From Chiridota heheva (taxonomy: Eukaryota; Echinodermata; Holothuroidea; Apodida; Chiridotidae), in assembly GCA_020152595.1 (NCBI GenBank), contig JAIGNY010001629.1:982589-1046588 (forward strand): DNA of 64,000 bases, read 5' to 3'. The translations under genes were made by a program, and so were the position numbers. Below, one piece after another: positions 29,961 to 62,895 of the stretch (the first letter of the stretch is position 1; the number at the start of each line of letters is the position of its first letter). The notes beneath the pieces were generated by a model. It saw nothing but the letters and a program-made list of their open reading frames with translations, was not told the origin of the DNA and made no database searches.

Positions 29961-29984
29961 AAAAAAGCTGATTTATATATTTTT

Positions 29985-32285: not shown

Positions 32286-32289
32286 ATGA

Positions 32290-33860: not shown

Positions 33861-33864
33861 AGCT

Positions 33865-35125: not shown

Positions 35126-35139
35126 CCAAATTAAGCCCA

Positions 35140-35600: not shown

Positions 35601-35618
35601 TTATTTTGAAGATAGTTT

Positions 35619-35861
35619 TTAAAGGAGCACTATAAACCGTAAAGATAGGGCGCTCGTATTTGCGAATTTCATACATATATTTTCCACAACAAACCGCTAA
35701 ACTTCATGCTTCCATAGCCCACAGCCGACAGCCGACTTAAGGGCAAAAGTTACTTGAATATGTATATTAACTAGAAAATCGCTATGCCGTTGCAATTTTT
35801 TTTTAAGGGGGGGGGCACTCTAAAACTTCACCCTCGCTTTTTCGCTGTAGTACTCCTTTAA
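35619..35861. mobile_element. MITE with TTAAAGGAG ends
   Basis: TTAAAGGAGCACTATA at 35619-35634 pairs with TGTAGTACTCCTTTAA at 35846-35861 (14 of 16 positions complementary). Length 243 bp, no coding capacity. The terminal TTAA could be a TTAA target duplication, as for piggyBac-type elements, or part of the inverted repeat itself. Confidence 0.6.
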
Positions 35862-36056
35862 GTTAAAGCGGATCAAATTTTTAAGCAAAACTGTTTTAAA
35901 ATATAACTGTTATAGTATAGATTTATTCACCATGCATGTGTAAAAGTGATGATAGGCCTATATGAAAATGAATAGTAATAAGGATCTAAAATTGCATTCT
36001 ACTGCTAGATCTGGGTCAAAGTTATATCTAATTTTCTGTTCACTATATACACATAA

Positions 36057-36235
<179 letters not shown>

Positions 36236-36239
36236 TAAA

Positions 36240-37045
36240 TGCCGTTGCATGATAGATCAGCATTCGATTTTTTTCGTGGGGAGAGGGTGGGGGTGGGGGG
36301 ACCCTAGAATTTCGCCCTTAGACATCTGAAGAAATTTAACATCATGCAAAACAATTTAGTATACATTTTCTAAATGATCAAATGATACATATCAATACAA
36401 AATTACATGGGAGCGGCCATTTTGTTCGTAAGCCCTCTAAAAAATGATGTATACCCCCAGTATAGATTTAGAATTTCAAATTGTCTAATTTCTATTAAAT
36501 ACTTTGTATTTTAAGTAAGTCTATGAATTTTTGTTTGTATATGATATTAATGATTCAAGCCCTTAGAACTTCATGTCGAAGCATTTTGAAGGCAAAATTG
36601 AAAGCGAATTTTTCTATACAAATATATTGCTAGCACATATATAGGGCAAAGGATGTCATCATTCATTGGCATGACTTCAACACCAAACTAGACAATGGCA
36701 GCTCGATGTTACAACTTGGATAGCGTGAGAATGGAATCAGATTTTATGATGGGGTTTTTGGTAGTTGGTTTATTTTTGTATTCTCTATCATATATCAAGG
36801 TAAAATATGTTACTTTATGTCTCCTTTAAATGCTGTAAATAATGACAATGTCCTGCATGCAGGAATTTAATTGGGGAGACTCAACAGACTTTTGGTCAGA
36901 AATTACTACATGTGCACTATTTCAAAAGCCTATGAGGGACAAGATTTACCTTAAGAAAATAACCACTCGGTCATGAATGATCTATTGAACACTTGACGGA
37001 ATTTTCTGATTAGTTTTACCCGATTCTGCAGGGCTTTTTTTTTTT
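36240..37045. other. Single-copy spacer between duplicated blocks
   Basis: No counterpart elsewhere in the window and no coding frame recognised. It contains a short G-rich run (36278-36302). Being unique, it marks the gap between the two tandem blocks. Confidence 0.55.
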
Positions 37046-41420: not shown

Positions 41421-42545
41421 CAGGGACAGATATAGGTTTGTCATCAAGGGATGATGATGTGGATTATGGTTTATATAAATTAGTTATTGTCGTGGAACAT
41501 GGACAGACTCAAGGGTGTGTTTATGAAATTAGTGGTGATGGAGTATAGGGTGTGATGACATGGGTGACGTGTGGTGGCTTCCTCGGTGGTGTTTGCGTGT
41601 GGGCTTAGATATCAATGGAAAATAGGGTGGGATGAAATATTGGACATGTGTGGGATTGCGTACTGTTAAGAGATATGAGACATATGGGACAGGGTGGGAC
41701 GGAATAGTGGGTCTGATGGCGGACATGTCTAAAACCACATGGGATGGCTTGTAGGACATCAGGTGGGATAGAGATTCAAATTACGGATCATAGGGTGGGA
41801 TATCAATGGGTGGTGATGTTATTTATGATGCAGGTTGGGATGGCATAATTTGTCTCTATTGTGCTGAGCTTATTTTAATGGTATATGTTTTTATATTTAC
41901 CAGAACTCTTTCAGAGCTCTTAGAATTGATTTTTTTTTTTTTAATGAATGCAAAATTCGTCGTTGTTTCAATTCCTGTTTATTGTAACCAGCTCCTCCCA
42001 ATCAATATATGTGGAGAAAGGACCGAAAAAAACAACAAATTTATTGGTATATCATTTTAATGTTCACAAATTATTACGCAATTTATGCTAAATAGGTATC
42101 TAAGTCTAAAAATGCTGTTAAATGGTATTTTAAGATATTCTGATGTTCTTGTTACTTTTTTCATGCTTGGTGTTAAGTATAGGCCTATTGTAAACCCTTT
42201 AGTATAGGCCTATTGTAAACCCTTTAAGTTTGGGATGTTGGTACCTTAAGAGTAGAGTACCATAATTTCAATAGATCAGATTTTAAATTTCCAAAGTAAC
42301 GTTTGCGGTTTTGGCTGATGTATGTGTCTGGGTGAACAGCTAAAATTCTTTACGCTATTTATTATAATCATAATTTATCAATTTATTATGAAACCAGACA
42401 AAGACAAATTTAAGCAAGTTGTAACTTTATAAGTGTAGCTTTAAAGTTGTAAATTTAAATTTTTAATCTTAAATTGCACAAAATATAAATTTATTATTAT
42501 AAAAGTAACACATGCATAAATTGGTATTTTGATTTTATCAAAAGC
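41421..42545. repeat. Module W, copy 2
   Basis: Follows copy 1 from about 32830. It carries a direct duplication of TATAGGCCTATTGTAAACCC (42178-42225) that copy 1 lacks and the third copy shares. Confidence 0.85.
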
Positions 42546-43790
42546 TGACCCCACATCACGCTTATCTAAACAGTACTTATGTCCTCTACCCCTGTGCCAA
42601 GTTACATGAATGTACATCATAACTTAAGTTATGTGCTCATGAATATTAAACATTTTGTACGAAAGTCTATTGTTATGCAAATAACTTTCTTAATATGCAC
42701 ACTTCACCTCAACATAAGTGTGGACATTGCTCTTCACATATATGATTATTTGTTCAAACAAAATCCCCACATCCATTTTAATTTATGAGATTTTATAGAT
42801 ACAAATATTTTCATTGTTATGCAAATAAGCTAATTAGTATGCACACACAACCCCTGATCATGATCACTTGAACAGTACCCCTATACCAAGCTACATGAAT
42901 GTACACTATTCATAATTTAAGTTATGAAAACTTTAACCAAAATCTTTAACCAAAACTTTAACCTGACAAATATTTTGATTGTTACGCAAATAAGGTAATT
43001 AGCAACAGCCCAATCATGCTCAGTTGAACAGTACCCATGTCCTCTACCCCTATGCCAAGTCATATAAATGTACACCATTTATAACTTAAGTTATACAATT
43101 TCAACCAAAACTTTACCAGACGCCGACGCCAGGGGTAGTAGAATAGCCCTACTTTTCTTCGAACAGTTGAGCTAAAAATGATTATAGTCCCATAGATTAA
43201 GGATAAAATTTACTCAGTTTTGCGCAAAATTGCATAGTTTTCGCCTTAGACCTAAATCAGTTTTATAAAAACCAAATTAAGCCAAAAAATAAAAACCGTC
43301 AGCGCAACCTGACAACTACTTTCACTGCTATGCAAATAAGCTAATCAATATGCACACATAACCCTAAAATCGTGCTCATTTGATCAGTACCCATGTCCTC
43401 TACCCTTATGCCAAGTCACATAAATGTACACCATTCATAAGTTATGAAAACTTTAACCAAAATCTTTAACCAAAACTTGAACCTGACAAATATTTGTATT
43501 GCTATGCAAATAAGCTAATAAATATGCACATACAACCCTCCAATTATAATCATTTGATCAGTGCCCATGTCCTCTATCCATATGCCAAGTCATATGAATG
43601 TACACCATTCGTAACTTAAGTTATGGAAACTTTAACCAAAACTTCACCGGACGCCGACGCCGGGATTAGTAGAATAGCCCGATTATTCTTGGAACAGTCG
43701 AGCTAAAAATATGGAATAAGGATAGAATTAACCGTTTTGCGCAAAATTGCATAATTTTGGCCTTGGACCTAAATCAGTTTTATAAAAAAG
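42546..43790. repeat. Module X, copy 3
   Basis: Starts GCTGACCCCACATCACGCTT like copy 2 and has the same unit order, with a shortened ACGCCGACGCCAGGGG end at 43120. Confidence 0.88.
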
Positions 43791-44017
43791 TCAAATTAAG
43801 CCCAAAAAAACTGTGATCAGCTGGCGGATCCAGGGGCATATCTGTGTGGGGTAAAAAATGTTACTAAGATTTCAGGGGAACACATGAAAATATCGTCAGC
43901 ACAAAATTGTTTTTTACTCTTTTTATTCTTACCATCAAAGCCTTTGAGAAAAAGCCAGAATTAACTGAGCCAAATCAGACATTTTATAACCAAACAAGTC
44001 TCAAAAAATAATACAAG

Positions 44018-44422
44018 ACCCTCTCTGACATCAAACCGCTTATCGCTTCTCTTGTTCGTGACCGCTGGCAAACCTTATGGAACTTCCAAATTGATAACAA
44101 ACTCCATATTATCCAGCCCACAATCCCGATCAAATCCACCATCAACAACCTTTCTCGTATCGACAACGTTCATATTACCCGTCTTAGAATTGGTCACACC
44201 CACCTCACTCACTCCCACCTCCTTATTGGTTCCCCCCAACCCCTCTGTAACAATTGCCACTGCATCCTCACAATCCAACACGTTCTCCTTGCTTGCCCCC
44301 TGTACAACCTTTCCAGAGCTTCCCTCGCTCCCCACAACTCAATTGCTGAGTTCTTCCAAAAAAATCCTCCAGATAAAATAGTCTCCTTCCTTCAGCATGC
44401 ATCCCTCTACAACCATATTTAA
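44018..44422 (+). pseudogene. Intact C-terminal reading frame of the LINE protein, with zinc knuckle
   Basis: 134 codons then TAA, unbroken from the truncation point. It contains I-D-N-V-H-I-T-R-L-R-I-G-H-T-H-L-T-H, then a C-x2-C-x7-H-x4-C knuckle (P-L-C-N-N-C ... Q-H-V-L-L-A-C) at about 44249-44303, and ends H-A-S-L-Y-N-H-I. Two extra C at about 44235 keep the frame that the first copy loses. No start codon of its own, so not expressed as a gene in any obvious way. Confidence 0.82.
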
Positions 44423-44637
44423 TTCTCCTCTTCCACCCCTCTCCACTTTGTTTTTGTTTTACCCATGCACCTTCTCTCTCGATCACAGCTTTCTGGCTTT
44501 TGTTCTTGAATTTCTCTCATTCTTCCCCTGGTCTCTTTCCTTACTACCTCTAAAATGATCTGACCTCTCAGGCACAATTTGACCTTCGTTGTCGTGGTGC
44601 CGTTAAGACCTCATCAAACAAACAAACAAACAAACAA
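44018..44637 (+). mobile_element. 5'-truncated LINE, second copy of the I-type element
   Basis: Begins ACCCTCTCTGACATCAAACC, corresponding to about 13187 of the first copy, and ends in a longer (CAAA)n tail. It is therefore truncated more heavily than the first copy and lacks the RNase H domain. The site before insertion is visible in module V copy 1. A target duplication of about five bases (ACAAG) is possible but overlaps the tail. Confidence 0.92.
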
Positions 44638-44937
44638 GAGAGCCAAAGGATAAAATTCGACACAAAAAGCCACAAAAAGCCAAATTAAAAGAGATATATA
44701 TATAACATTTTTGGGACCAAACAAGTATAAAAAAAGGGAATTTTCTTCAAATTTGGCTTCTAAAATGCCAATAATGCCAACTTTTGAATCCCGTCGAGGC
44801 TTTGCCGCGGCTACAACCTCGTTTACAGACCCCGAATGAAAATATATATGCACATGCTTGATGTGCAGCTTGAAATTACTTCACTCAAAGGAGTCTTAAA
44901 AACTGACCAGACCATTTTGTTTTTGTTTATTTATTTT

Positions 44938-46090: not shown

Positions 46091-47285
46091 GGATGATGTA
46101 TGGTGGATGTGATCGCGCACCTGTATAAGATAAGAGGGTGGGTTGTATTATGGGTCATGTGTGGAAAGGTATTTTGGAAATGGATGAGAGGGTATATGAG
46201 TTATTGTCTATGGAGCATAAAGGTGGGACAGACTCAAGGGTCGGATGTTATGGTTCATATGTTTTAGTGACGTATGGAGTGTAGGGTGTGATGACATGGG
46301 TGACGTGTGGTGGCTTCCTCGGTGGTGTTTGCGTGTGGGTTAAGATATCAATGGGAAATAGGGTGGGATGGAATATTAAAACATGTGTGGGATTGCGCAC
46401 TGTTAAGAGATATGAGACATATGGGACAGGGTGGGACGGAATAGTGGGTCTGATGGCGGACATGTCTAAAACCACATGGGATGGCTTGTATGACATAAGG
46501 TGGGATAGAGATTCAAATTACGGATCATAGGGTGGGCTATCAATGGGGGGATGTTATTTATGAAGCAGGTTGGGATGGCATAGTTTGTCTCTATTGTGCT
46601 GAGCTTATTTTAATAGTAGATCTTTTATATTTACCAGAACTCTTTCAGAGCTCTTAGGTTCGAAAATTTGAATTCTTTTTAATGAATGCAAAAGTCGTTG
46701 TTGTTTCAATTCCTGTTTATTGTAACCAGCTCCTCCCAATCAATATATGTGGAGAAAGGACCGAAAAAACAACAAATGTATTGGTATATTATTCTAATAT
46801 TTACAAATTATTACGCAATTTATGCTAAATAGGTATCTAAGTCAAAAAATGCTGTTAAATGGTATTTTAAGATATTCTGATGTTGTTGTTACTTTTTTCA
46901 TGCTTGGTGTTTAGTATAGGCCTATTGTAAACCCTTTAGTATAGGCCTATTGTAAACCTTTAAAGTTTGGGATGTTGGTACCTTAAGAGTAGAGTACCAT
47001 AGTTTCAATAGATCAGATTTTAAATTTCCAAAGTAACGTTTGCGGTTTTGGCTGATGCATGTGTCTGGGTTAACAGCTCAAATTCTTTATGTAATTTATT
47101 ATGATTATAATTTATTAATTCATTATAAAACCAGACAAAGACAAATTTAAGCAAGTTGTAACTTTATAAGTGTAGCTTTAAAGTTGTAAATTTAAATTTG
47201 TAATCTTAAATTGCACAAAATATAAATTTATTATTATAAAGATAACACATGCATGAATTAGTATTTTGATTTTATTAAAAGTTGA
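46091..47285. repeat. Module W, copy 3
   Basis: Aligns with 32706-33860 and 41421-42545 from GGGATGATGTATGGTGGATG onward and shares the duplicated AGGCCTATTGTAAAC with copy 2. Ends at about 47285, where unique sequence leads into the next element. Confidence 0.85.
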
Positions 47286-47724
47286 GTAGCTGACTTTACA
47301 AATGTCGCCGCTATGGCTAATAACTGGAGTATGACTGGGCAGCCATTTTTGGTTCGCATGCGAAGCATTTATGCGAACCTATGTAATGGCGATTACGTCC
47401 GTCCGGCCGTCCACAGATTTGTCCTGAGATTTCCTCAAAAATGTTAAAGTTTTTTGAGAATTCCTCAGAATTTCCTTATAAAATGTTAAAGTTTTTTAGA
47501 GGTACTTAAGATAGGATTAAAGACCAGTTCCTTAAAAAGTCTACAATACATTTGATATTTTCTTAGAAAATAACTGTAAAATGATATAATTTTCCAATAT
47601 TCTTCAGAGATCATTAAGTCTCTCTTGTAGCACTTGAGATTTGAAATCCTTAAAATTCTTCAAAATATTTGGGCACCAAACATTAATATCAGCCATGATT
47701 TGTTAAAATTCCAGCTTTATTATT

Positions 47725-48420
47725 GTGTTCATTTGCATAAAGTTATTACAGTATATGACCTGACCAGACTTTTTTTATTTAGCATGCTTAGTCAGGGAGT
47801 GTGACAGGATGTGATTGCATATAAACATAGGGAGGGATGCCATGTGGGACATGGATGGGGGCCATGAGGGACATATGATATAATATTTACCATGTTGTAT
47901 ACACCAAGGGCTATATCAGGCATAATTATTTGACTCCACTTTTTTTTCTTATTCAACAACTCATTTGCATATAAGTTATTTTATGAACTGACACTTTAAT
48001 ACATGGTATGCTCAATCAGGGACTGTGATAGCTAGGATGAAAATTCTTATGGAGCTTATGGGACGTCATGTCAGACATAGGGTGGGATGCCATGTGGGAT
48101 GCCATGTGGGACATGGGGTGGGATACCATTTGGGACATGGGGTGGGATGCCATGTGGAACAGGGTGGAATGCCACGTAGGATATGTGGTGGAATGCCATG
48201 CAGGACATAGGGTGGATTGCCATGGGATGGAATGTCATGTGGGACATGGGATGATATGGGATGTCATGTGGGACATGGCGTCCCACCCCATTTCAACAAG
48301 TCATTTGCATATAAGTTATTATATGAACTGACACTTTCAAACAGAGTATGCTCAATCAGTGACTGTGATAGCTAGGATGAGACTTCTTATGGAGCCTATG
48401 GGATGTCATGTGGGACATGG
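47725..48420. repeat. Three tandem copies of a larger unit carrying satellite
   Basis: CATTTGCATAAAGTTATT (47730), CATTTGCATATAAGTTATT (47963) and the same (48302) each lead, through TATGCTCAATCAGGGA-type words and TGTGATAGCTAGGATGA (absent from the first), to a stretch of GGGATGCCATGTGGGACAT repeats. Spacing is about 230 and 340 bases, the difference being the satellite length. Confidence 0.8.
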
Positions 48421-49400
48421 GGTGGGATGTCATGTGGGACATTGGGTGGGATGCCATGTGGAATAGCGTAGAATGCCATGTGGGACATGGTGGGATGCCA
48501 CAAGTAACACAGAGTGTGACAGGTTGTGATGCCATGTGTGACATAAGGTAGGATGCCATGTGTGACAAGGTAGGATGCCATGTGTGACATAGGGTAGGAG
48601 GCTATGTGGGACATAGAATGGGAGGCCATGGGGATATGGGATGTGATGCCATGTGGTACATCAAGTGGGATGTCATTGGGAGGGATACCATGTGGAACAT
48701 ATGGTGGGATGCCATGTGAGACATCAGGTGGGAAGCCACTGATGCAGGACACAGGGAGGGATGCCATGTGGGACATAGGGAGGGATGTCATGTGGGACAT
48801 AGGGAGATATATCATGTGGTCTTATGGTTGGATTAATGTGGGACACACATGTAGGATGGGATCCATGTGGGTCATAGCATGGGATGCCATGTGGGACATA
48901 TGGTGGAATGCCATGTGGGACATATGGTGGAATATGCTATGTGAGACACTGTGTGATGGAATGCCATGTGGGAGATATGGTGGAATGCCCTGTGGGACAT
49001 ATGATGGAATGCCATGTGGGACATGGGATGTCATGTGGGACATGGGGTGGGAATCCATGTGGGAGAAATGGTGATATGCCATGTGGGACATGGGGTGGGA
49101 TGCCATGTGGGAGATATGGTGGAATGCCATGTGGGACATGAAGTAGGATGCCATGTGGGACATGGAGTGGGATGCCATGTGGGACATGGAGTGGGATGCC
49201 ATGTGGGACATGGAGTGGGATGCCATGTGGGACATGGAGTGGGATGCCATGTGGGACATGGAGTGGGATGCCATGTGGGACATGGAGTGGGATGCCATGT
49301 GGGACATGGAGTGGGATGCCATGTGGGACATGGGGTGGGATGCCATGTGGGACATGGGGTGGGATGCCTTGTGTGACATAGGATGCCATGTGGGACTTAA
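48070..49400. repeat. 24-bp satellite (GATGCCATGTGGGACATGG + AGTGG)n
   Basis: The unit is GATGCCATGTGGGACATGGA plus GTGG, 24 bp. It is perfectly regular at 49150-49340 and more varied to the left. The same GGATGCCATGTGGGACAT theme appears in modules Z and W and at 27.6 and 62.7 kb. Frames on both strands stay open because 24 is a multiple of three; I do not call the 120-185 residue frames genes. Confidence 0.95.
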
Positions 49401-49497
49401 GTGTGAGGTGCCATTTTATAATTGGCCGGATCATATGATATGGGTGTCAATTTGCATGGGCATGCGAACCATGACGGTATTTACCATTCTAGGTAAA

Positions 49498-50160
49498 GTT
49501 GTGACTGTAATAGAGAGTTGTGACTGTAATAGAGAGTTGTGACTGTAATAGAGAGTCGTGATTGTAATAGAGAGTTGTGACTGTAATAGAGAGTCGTGAC
49601 TGTAATAGAGAGTCGTGACTAATAAAAAGTCGTGACTGTCATGGAGAGTCGTGACTGTCATAGAGAGTCGTGACTGTCATAGAGAGTCGTGACTGTCATA
49701 GAGAGTCGTGACTGTCATAGAGTCGTGACTGTCATAGAGTCGTGACTGTCATAGAGTCGTGACTGTCATAGAGAGTCGTGACTGTCATAGAGAGTCGTGA
49801 CTATCATAGAGAGTCGTGACTGTCGCAGAGAGTCGTGACTGTCATAGAGAGTCGTGACTGTCATAGAGTCGTGACTGTCATAGAGTCGTGACTGTCATAG
49901 AGTCGTGACTGTCATAGAGTCGTGACTGTCATAGAGTCGTGACTGTCATAGAGTCGTGACTGTCATAGAGTCGTGACTGTCATAGAGAGTGACTGTCATA
50001 GAGTCGTGACTGTCATAGAGTCGTGACGAAGTCGTGACTGTCATAGAGTCGTGACTGTCATAGAAAGTCATGACTGTCATAGAAAGTCGTGACTGCCAGA
50101 AAGTAGAAAGTCGTGACTGTCATAGAGTCGTGACTGTCATAGACTGTCATAGAGTCGTGA
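49498..50160. repeat. Morphing satellite, stage 1: 17/19-bp AGAGTCGTGACTGTCAT
   Basis: First GTGACTGTAATAGAGAGTT (19 bp), then GTGACTGTCATAGAGAGTC, then a 17-bp form AGAGTCGTGACTGTCAT that lost one AG. The shift from TAATAG to TCATAG occurs near 49625-49640. Units are homogeneous within each block. Confidence 0.95.
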
Positions 50161-50430
50161 CTGTCATAGACTGTCATAGACTGTCGAAGACTGTCGAAGA
50201 CTGTCGAAGACTGTCGAAGACTGTCGAAGACTGTCGAAGACTGTCGAAGACTGTCGAAGACTGTCGAAGACTGTCGAAGACTGTCGTAGACTGTCGTAGA
50301 CTGTCGTAGACTGTCGTAGACTGTCGTAGACTGTCGTAGACTGTCGTAGACTGTCGTAGACTGTCGGAGACTGTCGGAGACTGTCGGAGACTGTCGGAGA
50401 CTGTCGGAGACTGTCGGAGACTGTCGCAGA
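50161..50430. repeat. Morphing satellite, stage 2: 10-bp CTGTCGNAGA blocks
   Basis: Two CTGTCATAGA, then ten CTGTCGAAGA (50181-50280), eight CTGTCGTAGA (50281-50360), six CTGTCGGAGA (50361-50420) and one CTGTCGCAGA. Position 7 of the unit therefore passes through A, T, G and C in four clean blocks. Confidence 0.98.
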
Positions 50431-53400
50431 CTTGTTCGCAGACTTGTCGCAGACTTGTCGCAGACTTGTCGCAGACTTGTCGCAGACTTGTCGCAGACTT
50501 GTCGCAGACTTGTCGAGACTTGTCGCAGCGACTTGTCGGAGACTTGTCGCAGACTTGTCGCAGACTTGTCGCAGACTTGTCGCAGACTTGTCGCAGACTT
50601 GTCGCAGACTTGTCGTCAGACTTGTCGCAGACTTGTCGCAGACTTGTCGCAGACTTGTCGCGGAGACTTGTCGCAGACTTGTCGCAGACTTGTCGGAGAC
50701 TTGTCGCAGAGTCGCAGACTTGTCGCGAGACTTGTCGCAGAGTCGTCGTGACTGTCGGAGACTTGTCGCGAGACTTGTCGCAGAGTCGTGACTGTCGCAG
50801 ACTTGTCGCGAGACTTGTCGCAGAGTCGTGACTGTCGCAGACTTGTCGCAGACTTGTCGCAGAGTCGTGACTGTCGAGACTTGTCGCAGACTTGTCGCGG
50901 AGACTTGTCGCAGAGTCGTCGCAGACTTGTCGCAGACTTGTCGTCGAGAGTCGCGGAGACTTGTCGCAGACTTGTCGCAGACTTGTCGCAGAGTCGCGGA
51001 GACTGTCGCGGAGAGACTTGTCGCAGACTTGTCGCAGAGTCGTGACTGTCGCAGACTTGTCGAGACTTGTCGCAGAGTCGTCGACTGTCGCAGACTTGTC
51101 GAGCAGAGAGTCGCGACGTCAGACTTGTCGCAGAGTCTTGTCGGAGACTTGTCGCAGACTTGTCGCGAGTCGCAGACTGTCGGAGACTTGTCGCGAGACT
51201 TGTCGCAGAGAGTCGAGTCGCGACTGTCGCAGACTTGTCGGAGACTTGTCGCAGAGTCGCGACTGTCGAGACTTGTCGCAGACTTGTCGCGACTGTCGGA
51301 GACTTGTCGGAGACTTGTCGCGACTGTCGCAGACTTGTCGCAGACTTGTCGGAGACTTGTCGCGACTGTCGCAGACTTGTCGGAGACTTGTCGCGACTGT
51401 CGCAGACTTGTCGCAGACTTGTCGCGACTGTCGCAGACTTGTCGGAGACTTGTCGCGACTGTCGCAGACTTGTCGGAGACTTGTCGCAGACTTGTCGCAG
51501 ACTGTCGCAGACTTGTCGCAGACTTGTCGTGAGAGTCGCGACTGTCGAGACTTGTCGCGAGACTTGTCGCGACTTCGTCGGAGACTTGTCGCAGACTTGT
51601 CGAGACTTGTCGCAGACTTGTCGCAGACTTGTCGCAGACTTGTCGCGAGACTTGTCGAGACTTGTCGCAGACTTGTCGCAGACTTGTCGGAGACTTGTCG
51701 CAGACTTGTCGCAGACTTGTCGCAGACTTGTCGAGACTTGTCGCAGACGACTGTCGCAGACTTGTCGCAGACTTGTCGCAGAGTCGTGACTGTCGCAGAC
51801 TTGTCGCAGACTTGTCGCAGACTTGTCGCAGAGTCGTGACTGTCGCAGAGTCGCAGAGACTTGTCGACTGTCCGGAGACTTGTCGCAGAGTCGTGACTGT
51901 CGCAGACTTGTCGCAGACTTGTCGAGAGTCGTGACTGTCGCAGACTTGTCGCAGACTTGTCGCAGAGTCGTGACTTGTCGCAGACTTGTCAGACTTGTCG
52001 CGAGAGTCGTGACGACTGTCGCAGACTTGTCGCAGACTTGTCGCAGAGTCGTGACAGACTTGTCGCAGAGTCGCGAGACTTGTCGCAGACTTGTCGTGAT
52101 GAAGAGTCGTGACTGTCGCAGACTTGTCGCAGACTTGTCGCAGAGTCGACTGTCGCAGACTTGTCGCAGACTTGTCGCAGAGTCGCGAGTCGCAGACTTG
52201 TCGAGACTTGTCGCGAGAGTCGGACTGTCGGAGACTTGTCGCAGACTTGTCGCAGAGTCGTGACTGTCGCAGACTTGTCGGAGACGATCGTCGAGACTTG
52301 TCGCAGAGTCTTGTCGCAGACTTGTCGCAGACTTGTCGCAGAGTCGCAGACTTGTCGCAGACTTGTCGCAGACTTGTCGGAGAGTCGCGACTTGTCGCAG
52401 ACTTGTCGCAGACTTGTCGAGACTTGTCGCAGACTTGTCGCAGACTTGTCGCAGACTTGTCGCAGACTTGTCGCGAGACTTGTCGCAGACTTGTCGCAGA
52501 CTTGTCGCAGAGTCGGACTTGTCGAGACTTGTCGCGACTTGTCGCAGAGTCGCGACTGTCGGAGACTTGTCGCAGAGTCGCGACTGTCGGAGACTTGTCG
52601 CAGAGTCGCGACTGTCGGAGACTTGTCGCAGAGTCGCGACTGTCGGAGACTTGTCGCAGACTTGTCGCAGAGTCGCGACTGACTGTCGAGACTTGTCGCA
52701 GACTTGTCGCGAGAGTCGCGACTTGTCGCAGACTTGTCGCAGACTTGTCGCAGAGTCGCGACTGTCGGAGACTTGTCGCTAGAGACTTGTCGCAGAGTCG
52801 CGATCGTCGCAGACTTGTCGGAGACTTGTTGCAGAGTCGCGACTGTCGTCGAGACTTGTCGCAGACTTGTCGGAGAGTCGGAGTCGTCGAGACTCGTCGA
52901 GACTTGTCGCAGAGTCGTGACGTCGCGAGACTTGTCGGAGACTTGTCGCAGAGTCGCGACTGTCGGAGACTTGTCGGAGACTTGTCGGAGACTGTCGTCG
53001 GAGACTTGTCGCGGAGACTTGTCGCAGAGTCGCGATCGTCGGAGACTTGTCGCAGACTTGTCGAGAGTCGTGACTGTCGCAGAGACTTGTCGCAGACTTG
53101 TCGCAGAGTCGCGACTGTCGCAGACTTGTCGCAGAGTCGCGACTGTCGCAGACTTGTCGCAGAGTCGTGACTGTCGCAGACTTGTCGCAGACTTGTCGCA
53201 GAGTCGTGACTGTCGCAGACTTGTCGCAGACTTGTCGCAGAGTCGTGACTGTCGCAGACTTGTCGCAGACTTGTCGCAGACTTGTCGCAGAGTCGTGACT
53301 GTCGCAGACTTGTCGCAGACTTGTCGCAGACTTGTCGCAGACTTGTCGCAGACTTGTCGCAGACTTGTCGCAGACTTGTCGCAGACTTGTCGCAGACTTG

Positions 53401-53627
53401 TCGCAGACTTGTCGCAGACTTGTCGCAGACTTGTCGCAGAGTCGTGACTGTCGCAGACTTGTCGCAGACTTGTCGCAGAGTCGTGACTGTCGCAGACTTG
53501 TCGCAGACTTGTCGCAGAGTCGTGACTGTCGCAGACTTGTCGCAGACTTGTCGCAGAGTCGTGACTGTCGCAGACTTGTCGCAGACTTGTCGCAGAGTCG
53601 TGACTGTCGCAGACTTGTCGCAGAGTC
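50431..53627. repeat. Morphing satellite, stage 3: 11-bp CTTGTCGCAGA
   Basis: An added T turns the 10-bp unit into CTTGTCGCAGA. Variant pieces (CTTGTCGGAGA, GTCGCGACTGTCG, GTCGTGACTGTCGCAGA) are interspersed, most heavily at 50.7-53.1 kb. From 53100 to 53620 a longer unit of about 40 bp (GTCGTGACTGTCGCAGA plus two 11-mers) is regular. Confidence 0.97.
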
Positions 53628-54300
53628 GCGCGCGGGGAGGGACTGTCGCGCGCGGGGGAGGGACTGTCGCGCGCGGGGAGGGACTGTCGCGCGCGGGGAG
53701 GGACTGTCGCGCGCGGGGAGGGACTGTCGCGCGCGGGGGGGACTGTCGCGCGCGGGGAGGGACTGTCGCGCGCGGGGAGACCGTCGCGCGCGGGGGACTG
53801 TCGCGCGCGGGGACCGTCGCGGGACTGTCGCGCGCGGGGGAGGGACTGTCGCGCGCGGGGAGGGACTGTCGCGCGCGGGGGAGACTGTCGCGCGCGGGGG
53901 ACTGTCGCGCGCGGGGGACTGTCGCGCGCGGGGGACTGTCGCGCGCGGGGCGGGGACTGTCGCGCGCGGGGGCGGGGACTGTCGCGCGCGGGGGCGGGGA
54001 CTGTCGCGCGCGGGGGCGGGGGGACTGTCGCGCGCGGGGGGGGCGGGGAGACTGTCGCGCGCGGGGCGGGGAGACTGTCGCGCGCGCGGGGCGGGGAGAC
54101 TGTCGCGCGCGGGGGCGGGAGACTGTCGCGCGCGGGGCGGGAGACTGTCGCGCGCGGGGGCGGGGAGACTGTCGCGCGCGGGGCGGGGAGACTGTCGCGC
54201 GCGGGGGCGGGGAGACTGTCGCGCGCGGGGGGGGGAGACTGTCGCGCGCGCGGGGGCGGGGAGACTGTCGCGAGGGGGGGGAGACTGTCGAGCGCGGGGA
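53628..54300. repeat. Morphing satellite, stage 4: CTGTCGCGCGCGGGGAGGGA
   Basis: A 17-24 bp unit combining the old GACTGTCGC core with a CGCGCG run and a GGGGAGGGA/GGGGCGGGGA spacer. The alternating CG run recurs about 35 times, giving a short CpG-dense, Z-DNA-prone stretch. Confidence 0.96.
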
Positions 54301-55450
54301 GAGGCGGGAGACTGTCGCGCGAGGAGAGGCGGGAGACTGTCGCGCGAGGAGAGGCGGGAGACTGTCGCGCGAGGAGAGGCGGGAGACTGTCGCGCGCGGA
54401 GAGGAGAGGCGCGGGGGGGAGACTGTCGCGCGAGAGAGGCGGGAGACTGTCGCGCGAGGAGAGGCGCGGGGGGAGACTGTCGCGCGAGGAGAGGCGGGAG
54501 ACTGTCGCGCGAGGAGAGGCGGGAGACTGTCGCGAGGAGGAGAGGCGGGGAGACTGTCGCGCGGGAGAGGCGGGAGACTGTCGCGCGAGGAGAGGCGGGA
54601 GACTGTCGCGCGAGGAGAGGCGGGAGACTGTCGCGCGAGGAGAGGCGGGAGACTGTCGCGGGGAGAGGAGAGGCGGGAGACTGTCGCGCGAGGAGAGGCG
54701 GGGAGACTGTCGCGCGAGGAGAGGCGGGGAGACTGTCGCGCGAGGAGAGGCGGGGAGACTGTCGCGCGAGGAGAGGCGGGGAGACTGTCGCGCGAGGAGG
54801 CGGGAGGCGCGAGGAGAGGGGCGGAGACGTCGCGCGAGGAGAGGCGGGAGACTGTCGCGCGAGGAGAGGCGGGAGACTGTCGCGCGAGGAGAGGCGGGAG
54901 ACTGTCGAGGCGAGGAGAGGCGGGAGACTGTCGCGCGAGGAGAGGCGCGGGAGACTGTCGCGCGAGGAGAGGGGGAGACTGTCGCGAGGAGGAGAGGCGG
55001 GAGGGAGACTGTCGCGAGGAGAGGGGAGAGGCGGGAGAGGCGAGGGAGACTCGCGCGCGAGGAGAGGCGGGAGACTGTCGCGCGAGGAGAGGCGGGAGAC
55101 TGTCGCGGCGAGGGAGGCGGAGACTGTCGCGCGAGGAGAGGGGAGACTGTCGCGCGAGGAGAGGCGGGAGACTGTCGCGCGAGGAGAGGCGGGAGACTGT
55201 CGCGCGAGGAGAGGCGAGGGAGAGGGAGACTGTCGCGCGAGGAGAGGCGGGGAGACGAGGAGAGGGGAGACGTCGCGAGAGAGGTGAGGCGGGAGACTGT
55301 CGCGCGAGGAGAGGCGGGAGACTGTCGACGCGAGGGAGGAGAGGCGGGACTGTCGCGCGAGGGAGGTGAGGAGAGGCGGGAGACTGTCGCGCGAGGAGAG
55401 GCGAGGGAGAGGTGAGACGCGCGGGAGACTGTCGCGCTTGAGGAGACGCT
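54301..55450. repeat. Morphing satellite, stage 5: 25-bp GACTGTCGCGCGAGGAGAGG
   Basis: The unit is GACTGTCGCGCGAGGAGAGG plus CGGGA, 25 bp, in about 40 copies with small indels. The CG run of stage 4 is interrupted to CGCGCGAGG, and the purine spacer lengthens. Confidence 0.96.
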
Positions 55451-56050
55451 GGGAGACTGTCGCGAGGGAGGTGAGGGCGAGGAGACGCGGAGGAGACGAG
55501 AGACGCTGAGGGAGACGCGAGGAGACGCGAGGGAGGGGAGACTGTCGATGAGGAGACGCGAGAGGGGGAGGTGAGACTGACGAGGAGACGCGGGGAGACT
55601 GTCGGAGGGGGAGGTGAGGAGAGGGGAGAGACGAGAGGGGGAGGTGGAGACGGGGGGAGGTGGGAGGGGGATACGGGAGGGGGATACGGGAGGGGGATAC
55701 AGGAGGGGGGGGGATACAGGGGGGGGATACGGGAGGGGATACACGGGAGGGGGATACGAGGGGGAGGGGGATACGGGAGGGGGATACGGGAGGGGATACG
55801 GGAGGGGGATACGGGAGGGGGGGATACGGGAGGGGGATGGGAGGAGGGGATACAGGAGGGGACGGGAGGGGGGGGGATACAGGAGGGGGAGGGGGGGGGG
55901 GATACGGGAGGGGGATACGGGAGGGGGGATACGGGGGGGGATACGGAGGGGGGAGGGGGGATACGGAGGGGGGATACGGGAGGGGGACGCGAGAGGGGGG
56001 GGGGATAGGGGGAGGGGACGCGAGGGGGAGGGGATACGAGAGGGGGGAGG
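55451..56050. repeat. Morphing satellite, stage 6: GGGATACGGGAGGG
   Basis: A transition zone (55451-55640) in which GACTGTCG is lost for the last time at about 55600, then GGGGGATACGGGAG 14-bp units. G runs of four to ten are frequent. Confidence 0.93.
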
Positions 56051-59000
56051 GGAGACGGAGGGGGGGAGGGGAGACAGGAGGGGGGGAGAGGGGAGGGGGA
56101 GACGAGGAGGGGGGAGACGAGAGGGAGGGGGGGAGGGGGAGGGGGAGGGGGGGAGACGGGAGGGGGAGACAGGGGGGGGGGGAGACGGAGGGGGAGACGG
56201 GAGGGGGGGAGACGGAGGGGGAGACGGGAGGAGGGGAGACGGGAGGGGGAGACAGGGGAGAGGGGAGACGAGAGGAGGGGGGAGAGGGAGGGGAGACGAG
56301 AGGGGGGAGAGGAGACAGAGGGGGGGGAGAGGAGGGGAGACAGGAGAGGGGAGACAGGAGAGGGAGACGGGGAGGGGAGACGGGAGGGGGAGGGAGACGG
56401 GAGAGGGGAGACGGGAGAGGGGAGACAGGAGAGGGGAGACGGAGAGGGGAGACGGGAGAGGGGAGAGGGGAGAGGGGAGAGGGGAGACGGGAGAGGGGAG
56501 AGAGGGGGGGGGAGGGGGGGGGGAGAGGGGGAGGGGAGACGAGAGGGGGGAGAGGGGAGAGGGGGAGGGGAGGGGAGGGGGGAGGGGAGACGAGGGGGGA
56601 GGGGAGGAGGGGGAGGGGGGAGACGGGGGAGGAGAGGGAGAGGGGGGGAGAGGGGAGAGGGGAGAGGGGGGAGACAGGAGAGGGGGAGGGGAGGAGAGGG
56701 GAGACAGGAGGGGGGAGAGGGGGGAGAGGGGAGAGGAGGGGGAGGGGAGAGGGGAGGAGAGGGGAGAGGGAGAGGGGAGAGGGGAGACGAGGGGGAGAGG
56801 AGACGAGAGGGGGGGGGAGAGGGAGACGGGAGAGGGGAGACGGGAGAGGGAGAGGAGGGGAGAGGGGAGAGAGGGGAGAGGGGGGAGGAGAGGAGACGGG
56901 AGAGAGGGAGACGGGAGAGGGGAGAGGGGAGGAGAGGGGAGGGGCGAGGAGGAGAGGGGAGCGAGGGGGGGAGGGAGAGGGGAGACAGGGGGGGGAGAGG
57001 GGGGGGGGAGGCGAGAGGAGAGGGGGGCGAGACGGGAGAGGGGCGAGACAGGGGGGGGAGAGGGGGGGGAGACGGGAGAGGGGAGGGAGGAGACGGGAGG
57101 GGCGAGGAGAGATGAGGGAGGGGGGAGAGCGAGACAGGGGGGAGAGGGGGGAGGGAGACAGGAGAGGGGGGAGGCGAGACGGAGAGGGGCGAGGGGAGAG
57201 AGGGGAGGGGGCGAGGCGAGACAGGGAGGAGGGGAGGGGAGACGGGAGAGGGGAGGAGAGACGGGAGAGGGGGGAGGCGAGACGGGAGAGAGGGGCGAGG
57301 GGAGAGGGGGAGGGGAGGGGGAGGAGAGGGAGAGGGGCGAGGCGAGACGGGAGAGGGGCGAGGCGAGACGGGAGAGGGGGAGGCGAGAGGGGAGACGAGG
57401 CGAGACGGGAGAGGGGGGCGAGGCGAGACGGGAGGGGGAGGGAGGGGAGAGGGGAGGGAGGGGCGAGGGGAGACGAGGAGAGGGGAGAGGAGAGGCGAGA
57501 GACGGAGAGGGGCGAGGAGGAGACGGGAGAGGAGAGGGGAGACGGGAGAGGGGCGAGGGAGACGGAGGGGGGCGAGGCGAGACGGGAGGGGGCGAGGCGA
57601 GACGGGGAGAGGGGACGGGAGAGGAGGGAGACGGGAGAGGGGCGAGGCGAGACGGAGAGGGAGAGGCGAGACGGGAGAGGGGCGAGGCGAGACGGGAGGG
57701 GGAGGCGAGACGGGAGAGGGGCGAGGGAGAGGGGAGAGGGGCGAGGCAGAGACGAGGGGAGGGGCGAGGCGAGACGGGAGAGGGGCGAGGCGAGAGGGGA
57801 GGGGGAGGCGAGGGAGAGGGGAGGGAGGGAGGGCGAGACGAGGGGAGAGGGGGAGGCGGAGACGGAGAGAGGGGCGAGGCGAGACGAGGAGAGGGGCGAG
57901 GCGAGACGAGGAGAGGGGGCGAGGCGAGACGGGAGAGGGGCGAGGCGAGACGGGAGGGGAGAGGGAGACGAGAGGGGAGAGGCGAGACGAGGGAGAGGGG
58001 CGAGGCGAGAGGGGGGAGGGGCGAGGCGAGACGGGAGAGGGGCGAGGCGAGACGGGAGAGGGGCGAGGCGAGACGAGGGAGAGGGGCGAGGCGAGACAGG
58101 AGGGGCGAGGCGAGACGGAGAGGGAGCGAGGCGAGAGGGGAGGAGGGGCGAGGCGAGACAGAGAGGGGCGAGGCGAGACAGGGAGAGGGGGCGAGGCGAG
58201 ACGGGAGAGGGGCGAGGCGAGACGGGAGAGGGGCGAGGCGAGACGGGAGAGGGGCGAGGCGAGACGGGAGAGGGGCGAGGCGAGACGGGAGAGGGGCGAG
58301 GCGAGACGGGAGAGGGGCGAGGCGAGACGGGAGAGGGGCGAGGCGAGACAGGAGAGGGGCGAGGCGAGACAGGGAGAGGGGCGAGGCGAGGCGAGAGGGA
58401 GAGGGGGCGAGGCGAGACGGGAGAGAGGGCGGCGAGAGGAGAGGGGAGGAGAGGGGGCGGGAGAGAGGGGCGAGGCGAGACGGGAGGGGGGGAGGCGAGA
58501 GGGAGAGGGGCGAGGCAGAGACAGGAGAGGGGCGAGGCAGAGAGGAGGGAGAGGGGGCGAGGCGAGACGGGAGAGGGGCGAGGCGAGAGAGGGGCGACGA
58601 GACGGGAGAGGGGCGAGGCGAGACGGGAGAGGGGGCGAGGCGAGACGAGGAGGAGAGGCGAGACGGAGAGGGGAGGAGGGGAGCAGGGAGAGGAGAGGGG
58701 AGACAGAGGGGGAGGGGCGAGGCGAGACGGGGAGAGGGGGCGAGGCGAGAGGAGAGGGGCGAGGCGAGACGGGAGAGGGGCGAGGGGAGGGGGGAGACGA
58801 GAGGGAGAGGGGAGACGAGAGGGAGAGGGGAGGCGAGAGGGAGAGGGGCGAGGCGAGACGGGAGAGGGGGAGGAGAGGGGAGAGGGGAGGGAGGGAGAGG
58901 GAGAGGGGAGAGGGGCGAGGCGAGAGAGGGAGAGGGGCGAGGGAGAGAGGGGAGAGGGGAGAGGCGAGACAGGAGAGGGGAGAGAGGGAGACGAGGGGAG

Positions 59001-60010
59001 AGGGGAGACAGGAGAGGAGGAGAGGGGAGGAGAGGGGAGAGGGGGGACGAGAGGGGCGAGGCGAGACAGGGGAGGGGAGGCGAGGGAGAGGGAGCGAGGG
59101 AGGAGGGAGACAGGAGAGAGGGCGAGGCGAGAGGGGAGGGGAGGCGAGAGGGGGAGGCGAGACAGGAGGGGCGAGGGGAGAGGGGAGAGGGGGGGAGGGA
59201 GAGGACGAGAGGGAGAGGGGAGGCAGAGACAGGAGAGGGGCGAGGCGAGAGGGAGAGGGGCGAGGCGAGACAGGGAGAGGGGGAGGCGAGACGGGAGGCG
59301 AGGGGGAGGCGAGGCGAGACGAGAGGGGAGAGGAGGCGAGAGGCGAGAGGGGGAGGCGAGACGGGAGAGGGGGAGACGAGAGGGAGGGAGACGAGGAGAG
59401 GGGCGAGGGGAGAGGGGAGGGAGAGGGGGCGAGGAGAGGAGAGAGGGGAGAGGAGGGAGAGGGAGAGGGGAGGAGAGGAGGAGAGAGGGGGAGAGGGGAG
59501 GAGGAGAGGGAGAGAGGGGAGGCGAGACGAGGGGAGAGGGAGGAGGGGAGAGGAGGGGCGAGGGGAGAGGGGAGGAGAGGGGCGAGGGGAGACGGGAGAG
59601 GGGCGAGGCGAGACAGGAGAGGGGAGGAGGGGAGGGAGACGAGGGGAGAGGGGAGACGAGGGGGGAGGGAGACGAGGGGAGAGGAGACGAGGGGGGGAGG
59701 GGAGACGAGGGGAGAGGGGAGCGAGGAGAGGAGAGAGGGGGGGACAGAGAGGGGAGAGGGGAGACGAGAGGGAGAGGGGAGACGAGAGGGAGAGGGAGAC
59801 GAGGGGGAGGGAGAGGGAGAGGGGGGGAGGGGGAGGGGAGGGAGACGGAGGAGAGGGAGACGAGGGGGAGGGGAGACAGGAGGGGAGAGGGAGAGGAGGG
59901 AGACGGAGGGAGAGGAGGAGGGAGAGGGAGACGGGGGGAGAGGGGAGACGAGAGGGAGAGGGGAGACGAGAGGGAGAGGGGAGACGAGAGGGAGAGGGGA
60001 GACGAGAGGA
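56051..60010. repeat. Morphing satellite, stage 7: 4-kb polypurine, 14/21-bp GACGGGAGAGGGG units
   Basis: Made almost only of G and A with single C in GACG, GACA or GGCG, and nearly no T on the plus strand. A 21-bp form, GACGGGAGAGGGGCGAGGCG plus A, dominates 57.0-59.3 kb and is perfectly regular at about 58190-58350. Stop codons need T on plus and A on minus, so all frames run open over kilobases. That explains predicted proteins of 1000-3900 residues here. Confidence 0.96.
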
Positions 60011-61900
60011 GGAGACAGGAGGAGATGGGAGAGGGAGGGAGAGGGGAGACGAGGGGGAGAGGGGAGACGAGGGGAGGATGAGACGAGGGGGAGACGGAGG
60101 GAGAGGGAGAGGGGAGACGGAGGGGAGATGGGAGACGGGGGAGGAGGGGACGGAGACGATGGGGAGGAGAGATGGGAGACGAGGGGGGAGATGGGACGAG
60201 GGGAGGGAGAGAGGGGGGAGACGAGGAGGAGATGGAGGAGGGGAGATGGGGAGGGGGAGATGGGGAGACGAGGAGGAGATGGGAGACGAGGGGAGAGAGA
60301 GGGGGAGGGAGAGAGGGGAGGAGGAGGGGAGATGGGAGACGGGGGGGAGATGGGAGACGGGGGGAGATGAGGGGGGAGACGGGAGGGAGATGGGAGACGG
60401 AGGGGGAGATGGGAGACGAGGAGGAGATGGGAGACGGAGGGGAGATGGGAGACGGGAGGGGAGATGGGAGACGGGAGGGGAGATGGGAGACGGAGGGGAG
60501 ATGGGAGACGGAGGGGAGATGGGAGACGGAGGGGAGATGGGAGACGAGACGGGGGAGATGGGAGACGGGAGGGGGAGAGGGAGACGGAGGGGAGATGGGG
60601 AGACGGGGGGGAGATGGGAGACGGGGGGGAGATGGGAGACGAGGGGAGATGGGAGACGAGGGGGAGATGGGAGACGAGGGGGAGATGGGAGACGGGAGGG
60701 GAGATGGGAGACGGGGGAGATGGGAGACGAGGGGGAGATGGGAGACGGAGGGGAGATGGGAGACGAGGGGAGGGGAGATGGGAGACAGGAGGGGAGATGG
60801 GAGACGGAGGGGAGATGGGAGACGGAGGGGAGATGGGAGACGGAGGGGGAGATGGGAGACGGGAGGGGAGATGGGAGACGAGGGGGGAGATGGGAGACGA
60901 GGGGGGAGATGGGAGACGGGGGAGATGGGAGACGAGGGGAGATGGGAGACGGAGGGGAGATGGGAGACGAGGGGAGATGGGAGACGGGGGGAGATGGGAG
61001 ACGGGGGGAGATGGGAGACGAGGAGGAGATGGGAGACGAGGGGAGATGGGAGACGAGGGGAGATGGGAGATGGGAGGGGAGATGGGAGACGAGGGGAGAT
61101 GGGAGACGGGGGAGATGGGAGACGGGAGGGGGAGATGGGAGACGAGGGGAGATGGGAGACGAGGGGAGATGGGAGACGGGAGGGGAGATGGGAGACGGGA
61201 GGGGAGATGGGAGACGGAGGGGAGATGGGAGACGGGAGGAGATGGGAGACGAGGGGAGATGGGAGACGGGAGGGGAGATGGGAGACGGGGGGGAGATGGG
61301 AGACGGAGGGGAGATGGGAGACGATGGGGACAGGGGAGATGGGAGACGAGGGAGATGGGAGACGAGGGGGGAGATGGGAGACGAGGGGGAGATGGGAGAC
61401 GGGAGGGGAGATGGGAGACGGGGGGGAGATGGGAGACGAGGGGAGATGGGAGACGGAGGGGAGATGGGAGACGGGAGGGGAGATGGGAGACGGGAGGGGA
61501 GATGGGAGACGGGGGGAGATGGGAGACGGGAGGGGAGATGGGAGACAGGAGGGGAGATGGGAGACGGGAGGAGATGGGAGACGAGGAGGAGATGGGAGAC
61601 GAGGAGGAGATGGGAGACGAGGAGGGGAGATGGGAGACGGAGGGAGATGGGAGACAGGAGGAGATGGGAGACGAGGAGGGAGATGGGGAGAGAGGAGGAG
61701 ATGGGAGACGAGGAGGGAGATGGGAGACGAGGAGGGAGATGGGAGACGGAGAGGGGAGATGGGAGACGGAGGGAGATGGGAGAGAGAGGGGAGATGGGAG
61801 ACGAGGAGGGAGATGGGAGACGAGGGGAGATGGGAGACAGGAGGGAGATGGGAGACAGGAGGAGATGGGAGACGGGAGGGAGATGGGAGAGGGGAGGGAG
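60011..61900. repeat. Morphing satellite, stage 8: 17/18-bp GGGAGATGGGAGACGAGG
   Basis: A GATGGGAGACG core alternates with GGGG/GAGG/GGAGG spacers to give 16-20 bp units, about 100 copies. It differs from stage 7 by the GATGG insertion. The spacer drifts along the block: GGAGG, GAGGGG, GGGGG, GAGGAGG. Confidence 0.96.
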
Positions 61901-62219
61901 ATGGAGAGGGGAGGGGAGAGAGGGGAAGGGTGGGAGACGAGGCAGGGGAGACGAAAGGGGGAAGGGAGGCGAGAGGAGGGGAGACGAGAGAGGAGGGGAG
62001 ACAAGAGGGGAGGGGAGATGAGAGGGGAGGGGAGACGAGAGGGGAGGGGAGACGAGAGGTGGAGGGGAGATGAGATGGGGAGGGGAGACGAGAGGGGAGG
62101 GGAGACAAGAGGGGAGGGGGAGACGAGAGGTGGAGGGGAGACAAGAGGGGGGGGAGACGAGAGGGGAGGGGAGACGAGAGGAGACTAGAGGGGGAGGGGA
62201 GACGAGAGGGGGAGGGGAA
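61901..62219. repeat. Morphing satellite, stage 9: GGGGAGACGAGAGGGGAG
   Basis: About 19-bp units GAGACGAGAGGGGAGGG, with GAGACAAGAG and GAGATGAGAG variants. The array ends abruptly at GGGGAAACGAAATTTTGG. Confidence 0.94.
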
Positions 62220-62470
62220 ACGAAATTTTGGTCGCTTCCTGAAAGTTTGACCCAAATTTGGGGAAAATATTTTGCCAGTCTTTAGGAAATTTTGGCTTTT
62301 CCTGAAAATTTTCGTCAGCTTTTGGTTAGTTTGCGGGGAATTTTGGTTTAATGGACGTTTTGACCACTTTTCGATAAATATTACCAAAGTTATAACTTTT
62401 GTAGTGCTCGGGCGCCGCTGTGCCGGGTAACGAACAACAAGGGCTCCCAATGTTCCAAATATCTTATGAT
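62220..62470. other. AT-rich flank of the satellite, no gene
   Basis: Loose repeats of GAAATTTTGG and CCTGAAA words at 62221-62345; a small GC-rich patch at 62405-62450. No coding content seen. Confidence 0.55.
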
Positions 62471-62475
62471 TCTTA

Positions 62476-62705
62476 TGTTTTATTACTCATTCAAATGAAC
62501 GTTAATTTTTCAAATTGATGAAATATTTACGGGGCCCCTAAAGTCAGAAAGTCGCGGGCTCCCGTGTGCCCATGCGGTAAGACCGTGCTTTATTATTATG
62601 TTTTGTTACTTATTGGTATTAACGTTAATTTTTCAAATTGACCAAATATTTACGGGGCCCCTAAAGTCGCGGGGAACCCCGTGTGCCCATGTGATAGGAC
62701 TGTGC
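62476..62705. repeat. Direct duplication, about 115 bp twice
   Basis: ATGTTTTATTACTCATT...AACGTTAATTTTTCAAATTG...ATTTACGGGGCCCCTAAAGT...CCGTGTGCCCATG occurs at about 62476-62585 and 62598-62700. The copies differ by small indels and a few bases. Confidence 0.85.
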
Positions 62706-62895
62706 GGTTCTAAATTCCATCCTCGATCCATTTCTTCCATCGCATCATACGACCCACATGCTCCACGTGACATTTTAACTATGTATCATATGCTATCCAT
62801 GTCGCACACGCACTATCTCATTTATGCCACCCCACGCATCTGATGCCAACCCACTCAACGTGCCACATGATATCCCACCCTGTCTCTCTGGTACC
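62706..62895. repeat. Degenerate CACATG/CCACCC satellite relic
   Basis: Loose GCCACCCCAC, CACATGATATCCCACCCTGT and CCACATGCTCC words, in the same orientation and style as 27640-27995, probably another remnant of the GGGTGGGATG-GACAT family. Confidence 0.5.

Follow-up and report, generated by a model that had tools for sequence, protein, structure and literature searches.

A single tandem array in the genome of the sea cucumber Chiridota heheva changes its repeat unit stepwise from left to right, and homologous arrays at other loci share its two ends and the coarse order of its unit types while their interiors are built of different blocks. The array, here called W, occupies positions 49498-62221 (12,724 bp), directly before GAAATTTTGGTC, of the window analyzed, meaning the whole 64,000-nucleotide stretch that forms the last 64 kb of contig JAIGNY010001629.1 (C1622; assembly GCA_020152595.1, 1.10 Gb). 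All loci, designated by C-numbered contigs, were compared within this one assembly. We consider W, with a probability of about 0.7, to be an old array, fixed in its site, whose evolution is driven by frequent tandem duplications and deletions acting at short range within it.

The repeat unit shifts stepwise along one array

The original prediction, made from the letters of the window, described a satellite whose unit morphs through a list of ten words. All ten are present in the stated order (5, 21, 27, 10, 135, 7, 25, 11, 35, and 77 copies), and none occurs elsewhere in the window. Two words had been said to persist for roughly 6 kb each, one after the other, which agrees with spans of 49634-55597 for GACTGTC and 55250-62197 for GGGAGACG. 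GACTGTC is kept over its 6 kb while the two bases after it vary.

An unsupervised order-4 Markov segmentation, blind to units, divides W into 9 blocks (9 to 11 across nine settings), and block structure is lost when the 60-bp pieces of W are shuffled (1 block in each of three shuffles). The modal units of the blocks measure 5 to 25 bp, those of 5 and 7 bp being the cores of longer purine-rich units. Neighboring blocks resemble one another: an order as good arose in 13 of 20,000 permutations, or 48 of 20,000 when the end blocks were kept in place. For only 5 of the 9 does the closest match lie in an adjacent block, probably because the purine-rich blocks resemble one another. Unit distance also correlates with coordinate, with a Mantel rho of 0.41 in each half, a value reached by 0 of 200 shuffles. 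An array with stepwise-changing units is therefore borne out.

Two details of the original description need correction. The list of steps was right in its order but overlooked the smallest changes: at 50170-50429, successive copies of the 10-mer ACTGTCGNAG have A at N (10 copies), then T (8), then G (6), and then C (1). Calling each block homogeneous was too strong, as 50418-53617 mixes 11-mers with a higher-order unit of ~39 bp (Tandem Repeats Finder) and much of 56-60 kb is noisy.

Five other tandem arrays in the window gave 2, 2, 1, 1, and 1 blocks in the same segmentation, a weak control, since they are only 0.65 to 1.9 kb long and their blocks per kb are not fewer than in W. A homogeneous 55-bp tandem array at window 8888-10816 (35 copies, 89% matches) served as a control. 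A coding role for W was set aside, the very long open frames (up to 4,006 amino acids) reading as simple repeats without stops, though no search against protein families was made.

Sister arrays share their ends and order and differ inside

Related arrays in C1595 and C2416 were found with a piece of W, and flank searches placed them at the same site. Among the three copies, counting aligned columns and not gaps, the flanks are 96 to 97% alike (the right flank over 480 bp), the first 300 bp of the array 95 to 99%, and the last 300 bp 87 to 94%. Mid-array pieces taken at the same relative position are 69 to 86% alike over 12 to 139 aligned columns, and the interiors are different block series, with 13 blocks each in C1595 and C2416. 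Between 10 and 38% of 150-bp windows have a close counterpart in another of the three. The share is 27 to 38% between C1595 and C2416 and 10 to 14% between either of them and W, which suggests that C1595 and C2416 split later than W.

C161 holds an older copy. Its identity to the window is 86% in a stretch 28 kb left of the array and 90% beside the array, and 11 blocks of its own stand between homologous flanks. Compared with the three closest copies, its first 150 bp are 87 to 89% and its last 150 bp 91 to 94% alike, and 1 to 18% of 150-bp windows have a close counterpart.

The coarse order is common to all four arrays. In the inner 80%, the position of the best match rises with position in 12 of 12 ordered pairs (rho 0.72 to 0.92). 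Each array runs from GTGACTGT through TCGCGCG, at a median relative position of 0.33 to 0.57, to GGGGAGA. In the three younger copies, GACTGTC or GACTTGTC sits between the first two of these; such words number 186 to 366 there versus 3 in C161. Block-order permutations as good as the real order numbered 0 of 20,000 for C1595, C2416, and C161 alike, and unit distance follows position in 8 of 8 half-array sets from the four arrays (Mantel rho 0.13 to 0.51; 0 of 200 shuffles as high).

Judged by these comparisons, the arrays look old at their ends and in their coarse order, and the blocks in between look young or replaced. The prediction that the array records serial local amplification is supported, neighbors being near kin both in the window and in the sister arrays. 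The record is not, as had been supposed, frozen: since the separation of the three closest copies, large parts of the interior have changed, with flanks differing by only 3 to 4%.

More distant relatives

Repeats that change block by block also adjoin flanks of this kind in C3117, C2210, and C1390. We examined 28 kb of C3117 (512501-540500, short of the far end) and 6 kb of C1390, in a left and a right part. The left flank is 79% alike in C3117 and 75% in C2210, and the right flank 80% in C2210 and 75% in C1390. Homology at the site is less sure for C2210 and C1390 because the right flank lies in a dispersed repeat; both also match window 21000-22200 (76 to 80%), a likeness that supports a common origin of the region. 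The related arrays range in size from ~9 to at least 27 kb.

Permutations as good as the real block order numbered 1 of 20,000 for C2210, after one 20-bp block was dropped, and 0 of 20,000 for the examined part of C3117. Shuffled pieces still gave 4 to 7 blocks for C2210 and 5 to 6 for C3117 versus 13 and 12 in the real order. In five of the seven loci (W, C1595, C2416, C161, and C3117, plus strand), the word GTTGTGACT is found at the left end alone. In W, C1595, C2416, C161, and C2210, GAGACG is a word of the right 60%, with one stray copy each in W and C1595; in C1390 it occurs in the examined right part and not in the examined left part.

The examined part of C3117 is mirror-like, with AT-rich repeats leading to a GC-rich core and then to related AT-rich repeats in reverse (77 to 78% alike to the reversed copy), possibly through an inverted duplication. 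Pieces of flank at C3117:496099 (plus strand) and 553937 (minus strand) fit a similar center. At a further locus, C2:1664504-1665173, the right flank is present (76%), and the 1.5 kb preceding it contain no such array; this is possibly the site before the array arose or after its loss.

Proposed local duplication inside the array and its alternatives

Under the mechanism we propose, a new block would be copied from an adjacent unit and placed beside it. Because each block would be copied from, and inserted beside, a neighbor, sequence would shift gradually with position, and the line of units would amount to a tree laid flat, each unit the offspring of a neighbor. The outermost units would be hit less often and so tend to be the oldest part. 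Because events would seldom cover them, sister loci would keep similar ends and the coarse order, from AT-rich GTTGTGACT through CpG-rich TCGCGCG to purine-rich GGGGAGACGAG, while inner blocks are replaced. The molecular event would be replication slippage or, between sister strands, unequal exchange or conversion. Local duplication and drift may suffice, apparently with no need for selection.

Simulations were run from one seed (six left and six right units) under three placement rules, local, edge, and non-local. The main simulation had three settings with 10 runs each and an earlier one had two settings; both are plausibility tests, not fits. With local placement and 40 events after the split, ordered blocks formed in 10 of 10 runs, both ends stayed at least 85% alike in 8 of 10, colinearity was 0.81, and middle distance was 0.53, where W, C1595, and C2416 show a colinearity of 0.77 to 0.95 and a middle distance of 0.53 to 0.56. 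In the earlier run, order arose in 16 of 16 local, 6 of 16 edge, and 0 of 16 non-local runs. Non-local insertion was rejected, having produced ordered blocks in 0 of 30 runs of the main simulation and a poorer fit to the interior. By way of interior turnover and colinearity, the simulations lend local duplication partial support, in some settings only.

A number of results count against local duplication as we describe it. Under local placement, colinearity was 0.73 after 80 events, and both ends survived in 3 of 10 runs; with larger bursts it dropped to 0.34, no better than edge growth, and both ends survived in 4 of 10. In the earlier run, both ends survived in 4 of 8 local runs after 120 events and in 0 of 8 after 400. 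The local model also yields more blocks (medians 14 to 32) than the 9 of W. Under edge growth, both ends survived in 7, 5, and 8 of 10 runs in the three settings, and blocks came out ordered in 8, 7, and 5 (20 of 30), so that these two features by themselves fail to tell the models apart. Among the real arrays, the flanks give all three close pairs equal distance, though C1595 and C2416 share more blocks, and these two may be paralogs, or one of them an allele. At greater distance, GTTGTGACT was not found in C2210 or in the examined parts of C1390, nor GAGACG in the examined part of C3117. Within-block homogeneity rises inward significantly only in C3117 and does the reverse in W (rho -0.37). 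Lastly, the simple model leaves unexplained the inward rise in GC and the repeated change of the same dinucleotide in ACTGTCNNAG. Because homogeneity does not generally rise toward the middle, the greater age of the edges is argued from the sister loci; on this test, an age gradient failed to show within a single array except in C3117.

The original prediction had each expansion start from a mutated unit at the edge of the one before. Read as outward accretion in one direction, this would mean that one edge grows and that position is a one-way time axis. This accommodates adjacent blocks that differ by few changes, the tracking of position by unit distance, and the simulated retention of order and ends just given. 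It fits less well with homologous arrays that share both ends and differ most in the interior: simulated accretion leaves 48 to 63% close windows versus 10 to 37% among W, C1595, and C2416, and its colinearity (0.25 to 0.44) and middle distance (0.39 to 0.44) fall short of the real values. Ends that look old beside interiors that look replaced are better fitted by duplication inside the array, and we regard outward accretion as improbable.

Composition bears on a second proposal, that GC-biased repair with frequent recombination acts on top of local duplication. Recombination would be most frequent in the interior, and biased conversion would drive each variant that newly spreads toward GC, leaving old AT-rich edges around a GC-rich interior. 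In W, C2416, C161, and C3117, GC content increases away from the nearest end (rho 0.55 to 0.68), the near mirror image of C3117 going from ~0.40 at the left end to 0.79 inside and ~0.41 on the far side. Flanks have 27 to 53% GC, and CpG observed/expected is at least 1 in every decile of W, C1595, C2416, and C161. The same measures show no relation in C1595 (rho 0.16, p 0.29), a near-flat profile in C2210 (0.70 to 0.79), and CpG below expectation in 9 of 10 deciles of C3117, and the strong purine bias of the right half goes unexplained. GC-biased conversion would be a reasonable added force; as an account of the arrays, we find the proposal rather unlikely.

Selection could instead hold the order: GACTGTC, GGGAGACG, and similar words, or the gradient itself, would then act, for example, in chromatin or replication. 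The coarse order is kept despite flank divergence (90% identity between W and C161 beside the array), end words are common further out, and GACTGTC stays constant as the two bases next to it change. Yet the neutral local model holds order unaided in some settings, and C3117, C2210, and the examined parts of C1390 each do without one or the other end word. The scarcity of GACTGTC and GACTTGTC in C161 also speaks against function, as does the window itself, which has no RNA family match in Rfam at the gathering score and no tRNA in a tRNA scan. We think it very improbable that selection maintains the order.

Were the blocks and their order an assembly artifact, they would stem from mis-joined noisy reads of different repeats. 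G-run lengths do vary in the purine-rich half, as sequencing errors would make them, the window is the last stretch of its contig, and the contigs C1595 and C2416 are short. Separately assembled contigs nevertheless agree in end types and coarse order while their interiors differ, and mis-joins would hardly yield blocks with the words of both neighbors or colinearity between contigs. An artifact of this sort is hard to credit, and we return to local duplication inside the array as the best account.

Parts of the array and its borders

Table 1. Coordinates in the window of the parts of array W and of the features at its borders
Feature	Position	Strand	Remarks
Left end	49498..50177	+	19/17-mers, (GTTGTGACTGTAATAGAGA)n to (GTCGTGACTGTCATAGAGA)n
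10-mer ACTGTCGNAG block	50178..50417	+	From segmentation; N = A, T, G, then C
11-mer ACTTGTCGCAG and ~39-bp higher-order unit with GACTGTCGCAGACTTGTCGCAG, GTCGCAGAGTCGT	50418..53617	+	
~20-mer GGGACTGTCGCGCGCGGGGG	53618..54257	+	GC 0.83
25-mer GGGAGACTGTCGCGCGAGGAGAGGC	54258..55637	+	Unites left word GACTGTC and right word GGGAGA
13/14-mer GGGGATACGGGAG	55638..56037	+	
Purine-rich blocks GACGGGAGAGGGG, 21-mer GACGGGAGAGGGGCGAGGCGA, GGGAGACGAGAGGGAGA	56038..60017	+	Units read by eye
~18-mer GGGGAGATGGGAGACGA	60018..61917	+	
Right end, 17-mer GGGGAGACGAGAGGGGA	61918..62221	+	
Right flank	62222..62888	+	Common to C1595 and C2416; from 62713 also dispersed repeat
Helentron-like (HINE) insert	47349..49492	+	2,144 bp, outside the array
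Older left flank	47025..47350	+	90% like C161:100238-100563, which directly abuts the array there

A Helentron-like element at the left border

The insert to the left of W appears to be a non-autonomous Helentron-like element (HINE). It has 12-bp subterminal inverted repeats, TGGTTCGCATGC, at both ends, within the 11 to 13 bp expected of HINEs, with a further inverted repeat, ATGCGAACC, read from the sequence a few bases beyond the 5' one, and an inner 24-bp tandem array at 48399-49379. The published description of HINEs fits this 2.1-kb insert (PMC4067079, PMC7492417), a neighbor that arrived later and is not the array. The element belongs to a high-copy family: its last ~120 bp are present at no fewer than 37 further sites (with 40 of 1,999 candidates scored). 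Five dispersed 3'-end copies were read; the 3' palindrome directly before TCTAG is ACGGTATTTACCGT in three of the five, and the remaining two have ACGGTATTTACCAT, as does the window. CTAG is followed by T in C1595 and C2416 and by G in the window. Next to this border, C1595 has a 563-bp unit duplicated in tandem (oriented positions 5340 and 5903) that includes the element end and the array start.

As the element ends 5 bp before the array and HINEs bear central tandem repeats (PMC7492417), W might be taken for the central repeat of the adjacent element. Empty sites exist in C161 and C3117, with insertion between T and T, and because they carry the array without the element, the array is older. 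C161 has the same array start at its empty site, and unrelated sequence follows all five of the dispersed copies read. A Helentron origin of the array was rejected on the C161 site and has next to no likelihood.

Other repeats in the window and assembly

Window segments 29025-36575, 41626-44922, and 46362-47437 are homologous to the same ~3.3-kb C1595 left flank, with 69-bp minisatellites between them, and appear to be a local duplication of the flank. In two extra copies of the array's old left flank, near 33.6-33.9 and 42.2-42.5 kb, the match ends 65 bp before the array border. Window 12925-13416 and 44012-44422 hold two related open frames, the first of which resembles the RNase H part of a non-LTR (long terminal repeat) retrotransposon.

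Outside the window, C91:40221-45179 contains an unrelated array family with a 13-mer, CCAGTCGCAGACT, and successive AGACT, AGCCT, AGACG, AGACT, and AAACT blocks. Its order test is weaker, at 547 of 20,000 permutations and 2,518 of 20,000 with the ends fixed. C2009:1-9000 consists mostly of GAGACGGACGC-type repeats and falls into 4 blocks by segmentation.

Relation to known repeats

The human Y minisatellite MSY1 resembles W in having variant repeats in successive blocks, and its length mutants gain or lose 1 to 3 units in block lengths and others shift a block border (PMC2599865). MSY1 is haploid, so that interallelic exchange is not needed for these changes (PMC2599865). It is described as having a fixed 25-bp unit with 75% A+T and, in a donor allele, three block types in 77 repeats (PMC2599865). 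In contrast, W has units of 10 to 25 bp plus the 39-bp higher-order unit and a block GC of up to 0.83, and four of the arrays here have 9 to 13 blocks each. What also sets W apart from MSY1 is that homologous loci can be compared.

The alpha satellite unit is ~171 bp, and the units of W are short by contrast. In layered alpha satellite around human centromeres, older repeats flank younger ones, new ones arise inside and push the old outward, and the succession is partly common to several loci (PMC2729386). Here too the succession is partly common, and the outer repeats may be the older ones. The mirror-like succession over 28 kb in C3117 resembles such layering. Unlike it, W, C1595, C2416, and C161 have ends that differ in type, and because of this their series is a one-way gradient and not a mirror.

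Block-variant repeats and layered satellites are thus already known; what appears new is that two dissimilar ends and the gradient between them are conserved together while the interiors are replaced. A search of titles and abstract starts in the open-licence literature turned up no description of homologous arrays that keep their ends and order and have their interiors replaced, which is weak evidence of absence.

Implications

How one repeat turns into another is usually worked out from the endpoints, whereas here the intermediate steps are preserved in order. The sister loci are replicates of one process at several divergence depths, and with them rates, direction, and tract lengths of turnover can be estimated, and models separated, without crosses or pedigrees. 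The kept order is seen in W, C1595, C2416, and C161, and end words hint at it in three more loci, with flanks of ~75 to 80%. More tentatively, and with the odds still somewhat against it, such arrays may have a positional memory, ordered sequence states being inherited as order after most blocks have been replaced. If so, each array would serve as both a clock and a tree that can be read along a single dimension, and its composition, from an AT-rich edge through a CpG-rich middle to a purine-rich far end, would be set by position rather than by the descent of units.

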